Shown: positions 43,616 to 61,335 of the stretch, piece by piece
Layout of the letters: each line of letters begins with the position of its first letter
How positions within the stretch are numbered: the stretch's first letter is position 1
DNA from: Nitrosopumilus adriaticus
GTDB taxonomy: Archaea; Thermoproteota; Nitrososphaeria; Nitrososphaerales; Nitrosopumilaceae
DNA length: 64,000 nucleotides
NCBI RefSeq assembly: GCF_000956175.1
Contig: NZ_CP011070.1
Coordinates: 1,420,147 to 1,484,146, forward strand
Reading direction: 5' to 3'
Notes under the pieces: generated by a model
Seen by the model: the letters and a program-made list of their open reading frames with translations, nothing else
Database searches by the model: none
What the model was told of the DNA's origin: nothing
Position numbers and translations under genes: made by a program

Positions 43616-44056
43616 TTATGATTTTGGAGGCTTGACTATCATCACAGGACATCGTGCTTTTGCCACAACATTAGATGCCACACTTCCAAGTACGACTTTT
43701 TTAAAACCAGACCTGCCATGAGAACCCATTACAATTAAATCTGTATTGTTCTTCTCTGCAAATAAAAGAATGCCATCAGAACTTGAAGAATTGTGAACTA
43801 TTTCAACTGAGATTGACACATTTTCAACAATGTTTGAATTTTTTAGTTTATTCAAATCTTCTTTTGCTTTATTCTCAGATTCATCATGTGCCTCCTCAGC
43901 ACGTGACAAGGACATTCCAGATGTGTCAATATCACTTCCAATAACTGAAATCAGAGTTAGTTTTGAATCAAATTTTTTTGCAATCTCCATTGCTTTATCA
44001 AATGCCAAGTCACCAAAATTTGTAAAATCATAAGGAACTAGGATGTTATTTACCAT
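43616..44056 (-). CDS. UspA-family universal stress protein
   Basis: 146 residues from ATG 44056 (MVNNILVPYDFTNFGDLAFD). The C-terminal ATP-binding signature GSHGRSGFKKVVLGSVASNV plus RCPVMIVKP is intact, so the ATP-binding subclass. Two further UspA genes are at 55325 and 55845. Confidence 0.93.
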   Translation of the reverse strand: MVNNILVPYDFTNFGDLAFDKAMEIAKKFDSKLTLISVIGSDIDTSGMSLSRAEEAHDESENKAKEDLNKLKNSNIVENVSISVEIVHNSSSSDGILLFAEKNNTDLIVMGSHGRSGFKKVVLGSVASNVVAKARCPVMIVKPPKS

Positions 44057-44196
44057 ACTAGACACATAATTTTTTCAAATATTAAGATATACCATAATTG
44101 TCATGTTGTTGGTCATCAAAATTAAGAGTCATTTATTGTAGATTTAGCAGACATACCTTCAAAGATTTTCTAATAGTAAATCAAAGAAATGGACCA

Positions 44197-55324: not shown

Positions 55325-55834
55325 TTAACGACTACCAATGAATTTAGCAGATACAGGTACGTCTAGCATTAAGGTGGGACAGCGCAATTGTTCCAATAAT
55401 TTTATTGTAAGCCCACCAACAACAGATCTACTCTCAACTGACCTAGAACCCTTACTTTTTCCCATAACTATCAAATTAAAATTATTTTTCTTTTCATATT
55501 CTAAGACTTTTTGTAATGTTGGACCAATTAGTACTACAAGGGAAGTTTTTACTTTATTCTTGTTATATTTTTTAATTTTTTTCTGAAATTCTTGCTCCAT
55601 AGTTTTTTTCATGTGAAATGCAGTGTCTTGTAATTTTTTTTGTAGTTCAATTCTTTCAAGTTTGTTGGATATACTCTCCATAGGGTATTTCGGAATGTTA
55701 ACCACATGTAAAATTGTAACAGATCCATTTGATAACTTTGCAAGATTAATTCCATGTGCCAAAGCAGAATCCCCGGCTTCAAACCCACCATGTAAAACGA
55801 GTATTTTCTTATAGTTATTTGGTTTTATTGCCAA
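55325..55834 (-). CDS. UspA-like protein
   Basis: 169 residues, NYKKILVLHGGFEAGDSALA start. The C-terminal glycine loop reads GKSKGSRSVESRSVVGGLTI, a variant of G-X2-G-X9-G(S/T), so ATP binding is possible. Third gene of a channel-Usp-Usp operon. Confidence 0.85.
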   Translation of the reverse strand: MAIKPNNYKKILVLHGGFEAGDSALAHGINLAKLSNGSVTILHVVNIPKYPMESISNKLERIELQKKLQDTAFHMKKTMEQEFQKKIKKYNKNKVKTSLVVLIGPTLQKVLEYEKKNNFNLIVMGKSKGSRSVESRSVVGGLTIKLLEQLRCPTLMLDVPVSAKFIGSR

Positions 55835-55844
55835 AATATTTACC

Positions 55845-56306
55845 TCATTTTAAAGTCAACACGTTGCATTTTACTTCTTCATGTATTGCACTAACAACAT
55901 CATTGAAATGTTGTTGTTCTGAATTAGACAAGTGTGGATGATCTACAATTAACAAATCAATTTTGTTGGAGTCTACATATTCAACAATGCTATCAACTAG
56001 AGATTCTGTTGATTTGAATGAAGTTTTAAGTGAAATGTTTTCTTCATGGGCCTTTGCTTCAAATTTTTTTAGCAAATTCAAGATTTTGGCCTTATGTTTA
56101 TCTGCCTTTGTCTTGTCTTTTTTGGTTTTAAAGAAGACAAATTGTGGAGACTCATCCTGTGAGAATTCAATAACAGATAATTTTGAGTGGTTGGTTTTTG
56201 CCATTGCCAGCCCCATGTTGAATGCAGTTTCCTTGTTGGTGGGTTTTACATAAGTTACAAGAATATTTTTGAAAACATCCGTATTAATGCTAGAATTATT
56301 ATTCAT
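55845..56306 (-). CDS. degenerate UspA-like protein
   Basis: 153 residues: FKNILVTYVKPTNKETAFNM start and a Rossmann-like pattern, with LLIVDHPHLSNSEQQHFNDV at the end where the ATP-binding glycine loop would be; glycines are absent. Probably a non-nucleotide-binding Usp. It overlaps the channel gene by 8 bases. Confidence 0.75.
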   Translation of the reverse strand: MNNNSSINTDVFKNILVTYVKPTNKETAFNMGLAMAKTNHSKLSVIEFSQDESPQFVFFKTKKDKTKADKHKAKILNLLKKFEAKAHEENISLKTSFKSTESLVDSIVEYVDSNKIDLLIVDHPHLSNSEQQHFNDVVSAIHEEVKCNVLTLK

Positions 56307-57249
56307 TTACTGTTCCCATAATGACTATGTTGGAATTACCCAATTCTTTGGTAGGAATTATGATGCTTTCATTATTTTCCGTTGCAACAATTACATGCAG
56401 TAATTCTACAGCAGTAAGGGTTCCAGTTACATTTCCAATTCGTACTTTTTGACCAACTTTTAGAACTGAACGCTGTTTTGAAGCAGTGTTAATAATTGCA
56501 GGGAATATTTCTTTGAATGTAAATCCAAGACCTATTGCTATTGCAGCTCCAATTCCAATTGCAATACTCCATGAGAATGCAGAGACCAATATTGGAATTA
56601 TCTGCTGCCCAATTCCTAGTTGCGTTAAACCAACTGCAAAGATTACAGCGTAAATGATTCCTTTAACACCAATCTTAACATATTTTGATCCTCCAAAGTT
56701 TGATTTAACTAATTCCTGATCAAGCCATTTACCAATAAAAGTAGCAACTATCAATCCAACTACAATAATTAGAATGAATGCAAGAAGATTTGGAACCCAC
56801 AACCACAAATCAGTAAGTGCAGTTGATAACTGTTCAAATTCTAATGCATTGATGGCAGCAATTATGAAGAATAAATAGATGAACCATCTGACACTCGAGG
56901 CAATTAATTTAGAAGAATCTTGATTAGATGTTCCTGCGGATAAGAGATCATCGTTTTGTAGCTTAGTTTTCTGTAAGAATTTTAATGCTGTTTTTGAAAT
57001 TACTTTTCCAAATACTTTTCCAACTACTAATCCGATTAACAATAAAATAGATGCTGCAATAATTTTTGGGGCAGTTTCAGCAATACTAGTTGCAAAAGAT
57101 GTTACTGCCTCAATTCCAGGTTCATACAAAGTTTCAACCGAAAAGCTTGATTGTGCAAACACTTCATGGGTTGAAAATGTTACTAGTAAAGCAATCAACA
57201 CTACAAATGAAAACATCATTTTTGAATTATGCATGAACGTGTTAATCAT
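56299..57249 (-). CDS. MscS-like channel with signal peptide
   Basis: 316 residues: N-terminal signal-type segment (about 12-33, ending AQS), four TM helices, and a short MscS beta domain (LKVGQKVRIGNVTGTLTAVE, then ESIIIPTKELGNSNI). The TM pattern FGKVISKTALKFLQK and GLGFTFKEIFPAIIN fits the small-conductance channel group. Starts the operon with two Usp genes; the promoter region holds the CTTACAATGTAAG element. Confidence 0.88.
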   Translation of the reverse strand: MINTFMHNSKMMFSFVVLIALLVTFSTHEVFAQSSFSVETLYEPGIEAVTSFATSIAETAPKIIAASILLLIGLVVGKVFGKVISKTALKFLQKTKLQNDDLLSAGTSNQDSSKLIASSVRWFIYLFFIIAAINALEFEQLSTALTDLWLWVPNLLAFILIIVVGLIVATFIGKWLDQELVKSNFGGSKYVKIGVKGIIYAVIFAVGLTQLGIGQQIIPILVSAFSWSIAIGIGAAIAIGLGFTFKEIFPAIINTASKQRSVLKVGQKVRIGNVTGTLTAVELLHVIVATENNESIIIPTKELGNSNIVIMGTVNE

Positions 57250-58130: not shown

Positions 58131-59450
58131 TCAAAGGGTAACTCTATAGTAATCTAATTTTTCAGGATTAATCTGCTGAACAAATTCAATCTCATCTTCT
58201 CGGTTTATTCTGTTTTGTATTACTTCACGAAGCTGCAAGCTAGTAAGATAAACATAATTTTTTTCTTTGGCTGTTTTTCTAAACAATTTTCTCATTGTAG
58301 AGCCGCCCCCATGACCCCAATATCCTGCCTTTATTGCCAATGGTTCAAGAAAAACAGTATTTTTTTTACCAAAATTTTCATCACAGATTTTACTTGGCAA
58401 AGAATATCCTTCCAAAGCACCACCTTTTGCAAATCCCACTATCTCACCAGTCGGCGTTCCCAAGCGTAAAGTAACTAGAATTGTATCAGATTCGTTAACA
58501 GATTCAAAGAATGTAGTTTTTTTGAATTGTAACGGATCTGGTAACTCATCATAAATATCAAAAAGAATATCACCTAACTTTGAGTTATTTTTATCATATT
58601 CCAAAACCGGGATTAGTTGAATTTGTTCATAAGAAATTGCTGCCTTGACCTCTAGCTCTTTCTCACGTAATTTGAAAAAGCCCAGTACATTATCCATGAA
58701 TATTTTTCGCATGGTCTTAGGGAGTGACCTCATTACCTTGTCAGTCATCTCATGCTCTTCATTTAGCAAGGTCTCAAAAAATATTATACTTCTACGAATT
58801 AAAAAAGCAGGATCCCATCCCAGAGAATGAGAATTTTTCTTTGCAAGTTCCATAGCATCTAAAAAATTCCCCAGTGCATAAGATCCAATCCTATCTGCAA
58901 CAGACATGAACCACCCGAGATTATGGAAATGTTCTTGTTTTTTCAAATCTGTAGAATATGTTGATTTTGAAAAATGTGCTGAGATTAGCGGTTTTAGCTC
59001 TGGTTCCCTAAGATTCCACGGATAAGCAGTACGTAGAATCAAGGTTGCAACAAGATGTGCATCAATTCCAGCTTCGTTGAATAGTTTCAAAAGTTTATGA
59101 TCAGATGTAACAAAGTTGGCAGCCGTTACTTCATGTGGTTTGTCTTGTTCTTTTTCAGGATCATAATCATGAAACAAGGCAGCTGCAAACAAATGTTTGA
59201 AATCAAATTGATCAATGTGATTATTAAATTCGACTCCACGTGATGCCAATAAAGTATTGTGTGTAACTACAAGCTCATGACTTAGATTATGATACCCATA
59301 ATAGTTTTCATTTAAATTTTGTTTATGAAATTTCTCCAAACTGTAATTTAGTATTTCAATATAACATGTGTCTTCAAGATGCTCGTCTTTTAGCATGTCA
59401 ACTATAACATCTTGTAACTCTGTAAGGGTAGGGATTGTAGAACTGGACAA
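58131..59450 (-). CDS. HD/PDE-like phosphodiesterase fused to a GNAT-like domain
   Basis: 439 residues. The N-terminal half has YGYHNLSHELVVTH (H54, N55, H58), AAALFHDYDPEKEQDKPHEV (H94, D95) and conserved helices, the pattern of class I cyclic-nucleotide phosphodiesterases (HNxxH, HDxxH). Residues ~310-430 contain VFLEPLAIKAGYWGHGGGST and YLTSLQLREVIQNR, a GNAT-like acetyl-CoA loop (inferred). It is 13 bases downstream of a class III cyclase in the same operon, so it may degrade the product. The substrate is not established. Confidence 0.8.
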   Translation of the reverse strand: MSSSTIPTLTELQDVIVDMLKDEHLEDTCYIEILNYSLEKFHKQNLNENYYGYHNLSHELVVTHNTLLASRGVEFNNHIDQFDFKHLFAAALFHDYDPEKEQDKPHEVTAANFVTSDHKLLKLFNEAGIDAHLVATLILRTAYPWNLREPELKPLISAHFSKSTYSTDLKKQEHFHNLGWFMSVADRIGSYALGNFLDAMELAKKNSHSLGWDPAFLIRRSIIFFETLLNEEHEMTDKVMRSLPKTMRKIFMDNVLGFFKLREKELEVKAAISYEQIQLIPVLEYDKNNSKLGDILFDIYDELPDPLQFKKTTFFESVNESDTILVTLRLGTPTGEIVGFAKGGALEGYSLPSKICDENFGKKNTVFLEPLAIKAGYWGHGGGSTMRKLFRKTAKEKNYVYLTSLQLREVIQNRINREDEIEFVQQINPEKLDYYRVTL

Positions 59451-59463
59451 TATCTTAAATTAC

Positions 59464-60303
59464 TTATTTTCCTATATACGCATATACTGGATATATTTTT
59501 CCAGTTTTTGCAGATTTGTAACTCCATTGAGATTTATCCAATTTCAAAAGGGCAAAATATTCTTGAATAGAACCATGAATCTTTGTGTAAATATCATTAC
59601 CCACCATAATTTGATCTGGTTTTGCTAGATTTTGGATTTTTGCAGCCATACTAACAGAGGTTCCCAAGATATCCACATGTGCCTCTTGCAAGTCATCACC
59701 ATATCGCACAATAGTATTTTCTCCATAATCAATTCCAATTCTCACCTTTAATTCAGGCAGATCATTATTTTTCAGAATTGGATTTATCCCAACTTTTAGA
59801 ACTTTAAGCATAGATTCAGCACAAGTTACAGCTCTGCTGGCAACAGATGCAGACAAGCCTTCTGCAACAAAATACCCAATTACGGCATCACCTACAAATT
59901 TCAATACAAAGCCATCATGCCGTTTTATCACATATGCCATTTCTTGAGCAAATGTAGTAAAAATGGTCGCAAGTTTCTCTTTGGGTAAATTCAATATCAT
60001 ATCTGTGGAACCAACAAGATCAATAAACAGCACTGCCATCTCCATACTTTCTAATACTTTTTTTCTTAGAAATATTTCAGATTCTTCAGTTACTGCAGAA
60101 TACATGAAATTATGATTAAGTGAATTTGAAACTCGTTCCTTTATTTCTTCAATTAATGTTTCAGAGTCAATTATTTTTTCAGTACCACGTCCCATTAACA
60201 TATCAACTATGCTAGGGGTTTTTTCAGAGAGTAAATTCTCTACACCCTTTTTTGCCATATCAATGACAATTTTATCATCCATCGCATTGATTGAAATATT
60301 CAT
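59464..60303 (-). CDS. class III nucleotidyl cyclase
   Basis: 279 residues from ATG 60303 (a TTG at 60330 also possible). Helical N-terminus of about 85 residues, then the cyclase homology domain: metal Asp95 (FIDLVGSTD), Lys135 and Asp139 (LKFVGDAVIGYF), Asp211 (HVDILGTSVSMAAKIQ). The transition-state Asn is Ser218 and the Arg is Lys222, so activity is uncertain. Upstream of the PDE-like gene and divergent from an MscS channel. Confidence 0.88.
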   Translation of the reverse strand: MNISINAMDDKIVIDMAKKGVENLLSEKTPSIVDMLMGRGTEKIIDSETLIEEIKERVSNSLNHNFMYSAVTEESEIFLRKKVLESMEMAVLFIDLVGSTDMILNLPKEKLATIFTTFAQEMAYVIKRHDGFVLKFVGDAVIGYFVAEGLSASVASRAVTCAESMLKVLKVGINPILKNNDLPELKVRIGIDYGENTIVRYGDDLQEAHVDILGTSVSMAAKIQNLAKPDQIMVGNDIYTKIHGSIQEYFALLKLDKSQWSYKSAKTGKIYPVYAYIGK

Positions 60304-60381: not shown

Positions 60382-61335
60382 ATGAAACAGATTAAAGGAT
60401 TAGTAATTTGGATAGTAATTACAGTTGGGTTTTGGTTTGCAAATTATTATTTAGTCCATGATTATATTGAAAAAGCATTTTACACATTTGCGGCATTAAC
60501 CATAATTCACATCGCTTTCAAAATAATTCTAGATAATCAATTTTCTAAAAAAATCAAGGAGAAAAAAACCAGGTATTCTTTTAAAAAAATTACATCCATA
60601 ATGTATGTAGGATCATTTATTGCAGCACTTGCTGCAATATGGTCAGGAGGAACGCAGGAGGTAACTGTTGCTTTTGGATTAGTAACAGCAGGAGTTGCAT
60701 TTGCGTTGCAAGATGTGTTAAAAAATTTGGCAGGTGCCATAATTATTTACATCAATAGGCTATACGTAGTAGGCGATAGAATTGAGATAAATTCCAAAAC
60801 AGGAGATGTTCTTGATATAGGAATCTTTTACACCACTATTTTAGAGATAAGGGAATGGATATCTTCAGATTCTCCTACAGGGAGGATCAGTACCATTCCA
60901 AATGGATGGGTAATTGCAAATAATGTCAACAATTACACAAAAGATCATAATTACATATGGGATGAAATTTCTATTTCACTTGATTACAAAAGTGATGCAA
61001 AATATGCTCAAGAAAAATTCATGAGTATTGTAACATCACAAACAACACAATTTGTTGAGAAAGCAAAAAAAAGCATAGAAAATATGGGAGAAAAGTATTA
61101 TCTCGGAGAGGCAAATGCAGAGCCTGTAATTTTCATGTCATTGACAGACAAGGAAATTTTCTTGAAAATCAGATACACTGTAGAAACTCGACAACGCGGA
61201 TTAGTTAAAGATAAAATCAGTAATCTAATTTTAGAGGAAATTAGAAACTCACATGATAAAATCATGATTTCCACTCAGACATTAAACATTACAGGCTTTC
61301 CCGATTTGTCAATTAATGACAATAAACAAAAATAA
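60382..61335 (+). CDS. MscS-family channel
   Basis: 317 residues, about four TM segments and the pore helix (TVAFGLVTAGVAFALQDVLK), then the MscS core NRLYVVGDRIEINSKTGDVL with RISTIPNGWVIANNV and a C-terminal domain. 78 bases from the cyclase start, divergent, suggesting joint control. Third MscS-type channel in the window. Confidence 0.92.
   Translation: MKQIKGLVIWIVITVGFWFANYYLVHDYIEKAFYTFAALTIIHIAFKIILDNQFSKKIKEKKTRYSFKKITSIMYVGSFIAALAAIWSGGTQEVTVAFGLVTAGVAFALQDVLKNLAGAIIIYINRLYVVGDRIEINSKTGDVLDIGIFYTTILEIREWISSDSPTGRISTIPNGWVIANNVNNYTKDHNYIWDEISISLDYKSDAKYAQEKFMSIVTSQTTQFVEKAKKSIENMGEKYYLGEANAEPVIFMSLTDKEIFLKIRYTVETRQRGLVKDKISNLILEEIRNSHDKIMISTQTLNITGFPDLSINDNKQK

Follow-up and report, generated by a model that had tools for sequence, protein, structure and literature searches.

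A class III nucleotidyl cyclase gene and a predicted phosphodiesterase-fold–GNAT fusion gene form a candidate cyclic-nucleotide module in Nitrosopumilus adriaticus

Gene content of the locus

The window, which here means the whole 64,000-nucleotide stretch of Nitrosopumilus adriaticus DNA that was analysed, comes from a 1.80 Mb genome in a single contig. It carries a reverse-strand gene for a class III nucleotidyl cyclase, followed by a gene for a protein in which a phosphodiesterase (PDE)-like domain is joined to a GNAT-like domain (Table 1). A preliminary description of this DNA had named the cyclase, which is borne out by a Pfam match above the cut-off, and had placed the second gene 13 bases downstream, which is exact. 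The neighbours that it listed, a divergent MscS channel gene and, about 1 kb off, a second channel gene with two universal stress protein (Usp) genes, are all present.

Table 1. Features of the cyclase–fusion locus, in window coordinates
Feature	Position	Strand	Remarks
Two Usp genes	55325-55834 and 55845-56306		
Second MscS channel gene	56299-57249	(-)	0.9 kb away
PDE-fold + GNAT fusion protein	58131..59450	(-)	439 aa, TTG start
C-terminal GNAT-fold domain, residues 276-439	58134..58625	(-)	Separate model, Foldseek, VIA
GYWGHGGGSTMR, residues 376-387	58290..58325	(-)	Probable acyl-CoA pyrophosphate loop; role inferred from GNAT fold
N-terminal class I PDE-fold (HD superfamily) domain, residues 1-275	58626..59450	(-)	VIA-align and PDEase_I family matches
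D186, candidate fourth metal ligand	58893-58895	(-)	Conserved in 45/49
HD motif, residues 94-95	59166..59171	(-)	H94 and D95 in 49/49
HNLSH motif, residues 54-58	59277..59291	(-)	H54 and H58 invariant (49/49); N55 in 48/49
Class III nucleotidyl cyclase	59464..60303	(-)	279 aa from ATG 60303; Pfam Guanylate_cyc 8.3e-16
Cyclase S218...K222	59638..59652	(-)	Transition-state pair; Asn...Arg in CyaC, CyaB and 2w01
Cyclase second metal Asp, D139	59887..59889	(-)	Invariant in 20/20 aligned archaeal cyclases
Cyclase first metal Asp, D95	60019-60021	(-)	Invariant in 20/20 aligned archaeal cyclases
Divergent MscS channel gene	60382-61335	(+)	

The cyclase

The upstream protein is called a cyclase here on its domain and fold family, and its activity is a prediction. 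The PF00211 catalytic domain scores 58.5 bits, above the cut-off of 21.9, and the best PDB matches are CyaC (4.1e-13) and CyaB (1.5e-12). Because its homologues begin, in the alignment, at residue 8 of the window protein, ATG 60282 is more likely to be the true start than ATG 60303. The catalytic domain, the metal-binding aspartates and the adenine-type Lys/Asp pair are shared with CyaC and CyaB. This pair, K135 and D211, which we take to read the base, is invariant in the 20 aligned archaeal sequences. The window's cyclase differs from CyaC and CyaB in that Pfam recognises no sensor domain fused to it and in its transition-state positions, where Ser stands for Asn and Lys for Arg, so that both residues of the pair are replaced. 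Lys occupies position 222 in all 20 aligned archaeal cyclases, and position 218 is Ser in eight of them, the window's cyclase type, and Asn in the remaining 12. Cyclases paired with a fusion gene in genomes G126 and G559 and in the marine group I single cell AG-426-M08 retain this Asn, so the activity of the window's cyclase appears less certain than theirs.

These substitutions bear on one alternative, in which the window's cyclase is not active as such: its class III fold would have decayed or serve regulation, or it would carry out other NTP chemistry like that of GTP cyclohydrolase III, and the gene pair would be no messenger circuit. Ser218 in the window's clade and Lys222 throughout fit this reading, as does a PF00211-related ORF, below the cut-off, in a gene run of the same genome; the ORF is probably GTP cyclohydrolase III and the run of riboflavin type. 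However, the metal aspartates and base-reading residues are fully conserved and the paired cyclases of the three other genomes keep Asn, which makes an inactive enzyme improbable.

A second alternative is that the pair belongs to a Pycsar-like defence system, in which a pyrimidine cyclase would work with an effector of unusual kind. The cyclase does have strong profile similarity to PycC: PADLOC PycC models match it at 1.9e-29, and its family profile finds the cytidylate cyclase 8jsf at 5e-14. Nonetheless, the core-type cyclase of the same genome matches PycC better (7.9e-35), and the match is therefore not discriminating. The fusion has no PADLOC match and no recognisable Pycsar effector (TM, TIR or CNBD), Pfam giving GNAT, PDE and HD only, and the genome itself lacks a CNBD. 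Moreover, the base-reading residues are of adenine type, the cyclase family is a conserved core gene of the order, and defence genes were not recognised among the near neighbours scanned. A Pycsar system is thus very improbable here. As a side observation, core archaeal cyclases (L014 5658-6458, L159 7134-7982, L076 17056-17856, P0002) are matched by PycC models at up to 7.9e-35, and calling Pycsar from a PycC match by itself would therefore put a wrong label on ordinary genes.

Cyclases of this family are common in the order, with a match at E<=1e-40 in 277 of 400 genomes. Among the matches listed, ten other genomes of this 400-genome draw carry a cyclase of the window's own type (77-84% identity); in the other genomes whose surroundings were examined, that type was not found directly beside a fusion gene. 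The core-type paralogue in the window's genome is 50% identical to the window's cyclase. At least three further class III cyclase-like genes lie in that genome (L015 4202-5620(-), L015 5895-6617(+) and L016 4409-6175(-)), two of them mutually divergent; one has an extended N-terminal region, probably of membrane or sensor type.

The PDE-fold–GNAT fusion protein

The AlphaFold2 model of the fusion protein (mean pLDDT 90.8, pTM 0.85) predicts a class I PDE-like fold for the first ~275 residues and a GNAT-like fold for residues ~276-439. The N-terminal part is helical and aligns with class I PDEs at VIA-align Z scores of 17.6-18.4 over 230-250 residues (rmsd 3.3-4.9 Å). Mostly helical models may attain Z 14 through common arrangement, a level that scores of about 18 exceed. 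The best 50 entries listed are all PDEs (PDE10A, 9A, 5A, 6, 2A and RhoPDE), a comparison that covers these top entries and leaves lower-ranking HD families outside it. A Foldseek search with the whole fusion places GNATs first (1.3e-4), with PDE8A at 3.6e-4.

Profile matches point the same way at lower significance. In the window's protein both PDEase_I (PF00233; E 0.009, 16.2 bits against a gathering threshold of 24.8) and HD (E 0.08) fall under their cut-offs. Across an alignment of the window protein and 48 of the 64 full-length relatives found, PDEase_I is matched at E<=0.1 by 40 of the 49 members (best 7.5e-5), HD is touched by 33 and the nucleotidase family YfbR-like by six; weak PF00233 matches at E<=10 also occur in 5 of 14 control genomes. 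Searched against the PDB, the family profile finds PDE5 chains best (E 0.011, residues 50-96).

The preliminary description had read HNxxH and HDxxH motifs of class I PDEs in this domain. The first of these stands, running from H54 to H58 and present in 48/49 relatives. Only the HD of the second does (H94-D95): the window's protein reads HDYDP, and HDxxH occurs in none of the 49. Where PDEs have HDxxHxG, the family carries HDxDPxKxxDKPHE, with P98, K100, P105 and E107 invariant across the 49 relatives. The class I PDE signature PS00126 is HDxxHx[AG]xx[NQ], and it matches 0/49 family members. In the sequence alignment, H58, H94, D95 and D186 form a candidate H, H, D, D metal ligand set, conserved in 45-49 of 49. 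The fusion therefore resembles class I PDEs such as PDE10A, PDE9A, PDE5A and RhoPDE in the fold of its whole N-terminal domain, in HNxxH and in HD, whereas it differs from them in scoring under the Pfam cut-off, in lacking PS00126 and in being joined to a GNAT.

Structure prediction had been named beforehand as a possible refutation of the GNAT-like region, and it supports a GNAT. Modelled alone, the C-terminal part reaches pLDDT 89.7, with a best Foldseek E of 3.1e-8 and VIA Z of 13.7-15.5. Acetyltransf_1 matches the fusion at 5e-4 with 20.7 bits, exactly at the cut-off of 20.7. In the putative acyl-CoA loop (GYWGxxGG...R), G379 and R387 are invariant, and G376, G382 and G383 are kept in 47, 46 and 48 of 49. 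The 50 listed rows of structural matches include NatC, RimI, the N-acyl amino acid synthase FeeM and the AHL synthase LasI, which share the fold at 6-16% identity, a likeness that does not tell donor or acceptor. Assignment to a GNAT type was ruled out, as the listed rows span only about 2 Z.

Distribution of the fusion family

As the preliminary description had proposed, a profile search was made for the fusion, and it traced the family through most ammonia-oxidising archaea. At E<=1e-50, members were matched in 248 of 400 genomes from the order, usually without an adjacent cyclase, and in 70 of 398 genomes of the phylum, every one within the window's order. A scan of 84,980 species genomes gave at least 70 fusion loci; among the matches listed all are archaeal, and they are Thaumarchaeota wherever a group is named. 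Also among the matches listed, good genomes such as G029 and G570 have a cyclase match without a fusion match. A search for viral relatives yielded 28 pattern matches, of which 0 were confirmed.

The window's fusion is a divergent paralogue, with a second copy in its genome at 46% identity. Close relatives (61-72%) were found in only four other genomes (G144, G126, G559 and G162) among the matches listed. Of these, G559 has four PDE-GNAT family matches and four cyclase matches (L096, L218, L219) among those listed, and offers a natural place for studying expansion of the family. The core fusion gene of the window's genome (L013 7163-8614) has an FAD-linked oxidase gene 9 bases downstream.

These counts qualify the earlier statement that the arrangement is uncommon in archaea. 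It does not hold for the fusion itself, nor for the cyclases, since annotation-based reports already describe class 3 cyclases in Thaumarchaeota, along with a CpdA-type PDE (PMC9289680), and adenylate cyclase genes appear on a Nitrosotalea gene map (PMC4836417); few predicted archaeal adenylate cyclases are said to be class III (PMC8646023). It does hold for their adjacency, which is rare.

Recurrent pairing of cyclase and fusion genes

A cyclase gene lies directly upstream on the same strand, at a gap of 3-13 bases, for 4 of 155 distinct fusion proteins: those of the window, G126, G559 and AG-426-M08. None was found for the other 151. The count is of distinct proteins, with at least 600 bases of upstream sequence examined for 152/155; the underlying set of 187 loci includes duplicates. 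At this frequency a conserved operon for the family as a whole was rejected. Yet the pair recurs in three other genomes, which argues against chance.

The paired cyclases fall in three parts of the cyclase tree. A single clade of the three accessory paired cyclases is rejected (p-AU 1.8e-7), as is placement of the AG-426-M08 fusion inside the window's clade (p-AU 0.002), the groups tested having been picked once the tree had been seen. In G144, about 38 bases matching a cyclase 3′ end stand directly before the fusion gene (L077 17289-17340). This scar has a local score of 31 of 39, against a best of 14 among 168 control stretches (duplicates included), and the genome keeps an 82% cyclase 12 kb from the fusion. 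G162 was considered as a second scar and rejected, its DNA score of 12 lying inside the control range and leaving only a short protein-level resemblance. Given the distinct branches of the paired cyclases, the G144 scar and the position of AG-426-M08 outside the window's clade, the pair was probably ancestral in that clade, the cyclase then being replaced in one lineage and disappearing from another; elsewhere a separate pairing exists.

That the two families are repeatedly found side by side is, in this analysis, the strongest evidence of a functional link: non-monophyletic paired cyclases and the G144 scar both argue for one. An ancestral pair broken up in most lineages would explain the adjacency as well and would have the same meaning.

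The distribution bears on a further alternative, in which the PDE-like N-terminal domain is an HD hydrolase acting on another phosphate ester, a nucleotide or dinucleotide, with a core metabolic or protein-modifying job, and cyclase pairing is occasional and serves control at most. The breadth of the family without adjacent cyclases, the HDxDPxKxxDKPHE replacement and the six members that touch the YfbR-like family all suit such an enzyme. Against it, class I PDEs are the closest fold in all of the best 50 entries listed and the pairing occurs in separate branches. We regard this alternative as unlikely, if worth keeping in view.

In AG-426-M08, a winged-helix regulator gene (HVO_A0261_N, weak FilR1_middle; L159 6337-7137) overlaps the cyclase start by 4 bases, a possible regulator–cyclase–PDE/GNAT three-gene unit. 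In the window's genome, a 41% homologue of this regulator (L015 3377-4024) lies next to two further cyclase genes.

A proposed two-gene messenger circuit

Both folds, the conservation of the candidate ligands and the recurrent pairing were established computationally, and from them we infer a two-gene messenger module, to which we assign a probability of roughly 0.4. In this model the cyclase would make a cyclic nucleotide, most likely 3′,5′-cAMP because K135 and D211 are of adenine type. The class I PDE-fold domain of the fusion would bind that nucleotide, and a two-metal centre (H58, H94, D95 and D186) would hydrolyse it, with H54 as general acid. The C-terminal GNAT would acylate a protein or a small molecule, its activity depending on whether the PDE site is filled or empty. 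Sensor, terminator and output would thereby reside in one self-resetting polypeptide, and the two genes may encode a complete messenger circuit in an ammonia-oxidising archaeon. The PDE-GNAT protein is the best candidate for a receptor, since the usual one is missing: the cNMP_binding domain (PF00027) is absent from the window's genome and matched in 12 of 14 control genomes. A domain of the PDE fold, its candidate metal ligands conserved, could sense the messenger and also degrade it.

The PDE-fold domain might instead act as a receptor only, the nucleotide gating the GNAT without useful hydrolysis and the signal being ended by a different enzyme, such as a CpdA-type esterase. Ligand-binding regulatory domains are described for other two-domain GNATs in part of PMC8556138, and CpdA-type COG1409 is reported in Thaumarchaeota in the passage of PMC9289680. 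However, candidate metal ligands that are almost invariant would be unusual in a pure receptor, and a role confined to sensing is rather improbable.

Ammonia-oxidising archaea are abundant. Were the proposed module real, a widespread protein of theirs would be messenger receptor, terminator and acyltransferase in one, and the class I PDE fold would be placed in archaea. In the open-access literature searched there was no report of a PDE-GNAT fusion or of its pairing with a cyclase, and, for cyclic-nucleotide circuits in ammonia-oxidising archaea, there were only genome annotations.

The nearest functional likeness is to the mycobacterial type III cAMP-GNATs (MsPat MSMEG_5458 and MtPat Rv0998), which also join an N-terminal cyclic-nucleotide module, here a proposed one, to a C-terminal GNAT. 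In those enzymes cAMP activates acetylation and the target is a universal stress protein, according to sections of PMC8556138 and PMC4964394. The mycobacterial module is a CRP-type binding domain, whereas in the present protein its place is taken by a PDE/HD fold in which candidate metal ligands are conserved, and Pfam finds no PF00027 in the fusion. The fusion may thus work by analogy with the type III cNMP-GNATs and, without that domain, is not a member of them. A wider claim is doubtful and more speculative: that a self-resetting switch restricted to ammonia-oxidising archaea, in which a PDE-fold receptor and terminator drives a fused acyltransferase, evolved independently as a counterpart of the mycobacterial cAMP-GNATs and represents an archaeal class I PDE-fold branch tied to a cyclase.

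Channels and universal stress proteins near the pair

The preliminary description had combined a maker and a breaker of a cyclic nucleotide and a GNAT output with the surrounding channel and Usp genes. As a prediction, the combination gains from the folds and the recurrent gene pairing, but the pair's channel and Usp neighbours are not conserved. MscS had no match in 20 scanned regions, including those of the four other genomes of the window's clade. In the scan around accessory cyclases, the pairs of the window, G126 and G559 had no Usp gene within 3 kb. With no MscS beside the other clade members and no Usp at the pairs, a conserved link of either to the pair was rejected.

Away from the pairs, solo accessory cyclases tend toward Usp neighbours (L076, L077, L083, L085-L090). 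Of 15 accessory cyclases, a total that includes the three pairs, 9 have a Usp gene within 3 kb, compared with 1 of 66 core fusion loci; within 1.5 kb, 0 of 14 core cyclases have one, and the rows of this comparison are non-independent. A mycobacterial Usp binds cAMP (as stated in a passage of PMC11107214). Finally, a stretch of about 40 kb around the end of the window contains 7 of the 16 Usp matches of its genome (window 43616-44065 and 55325-56306; genome 1463-1503 kb).
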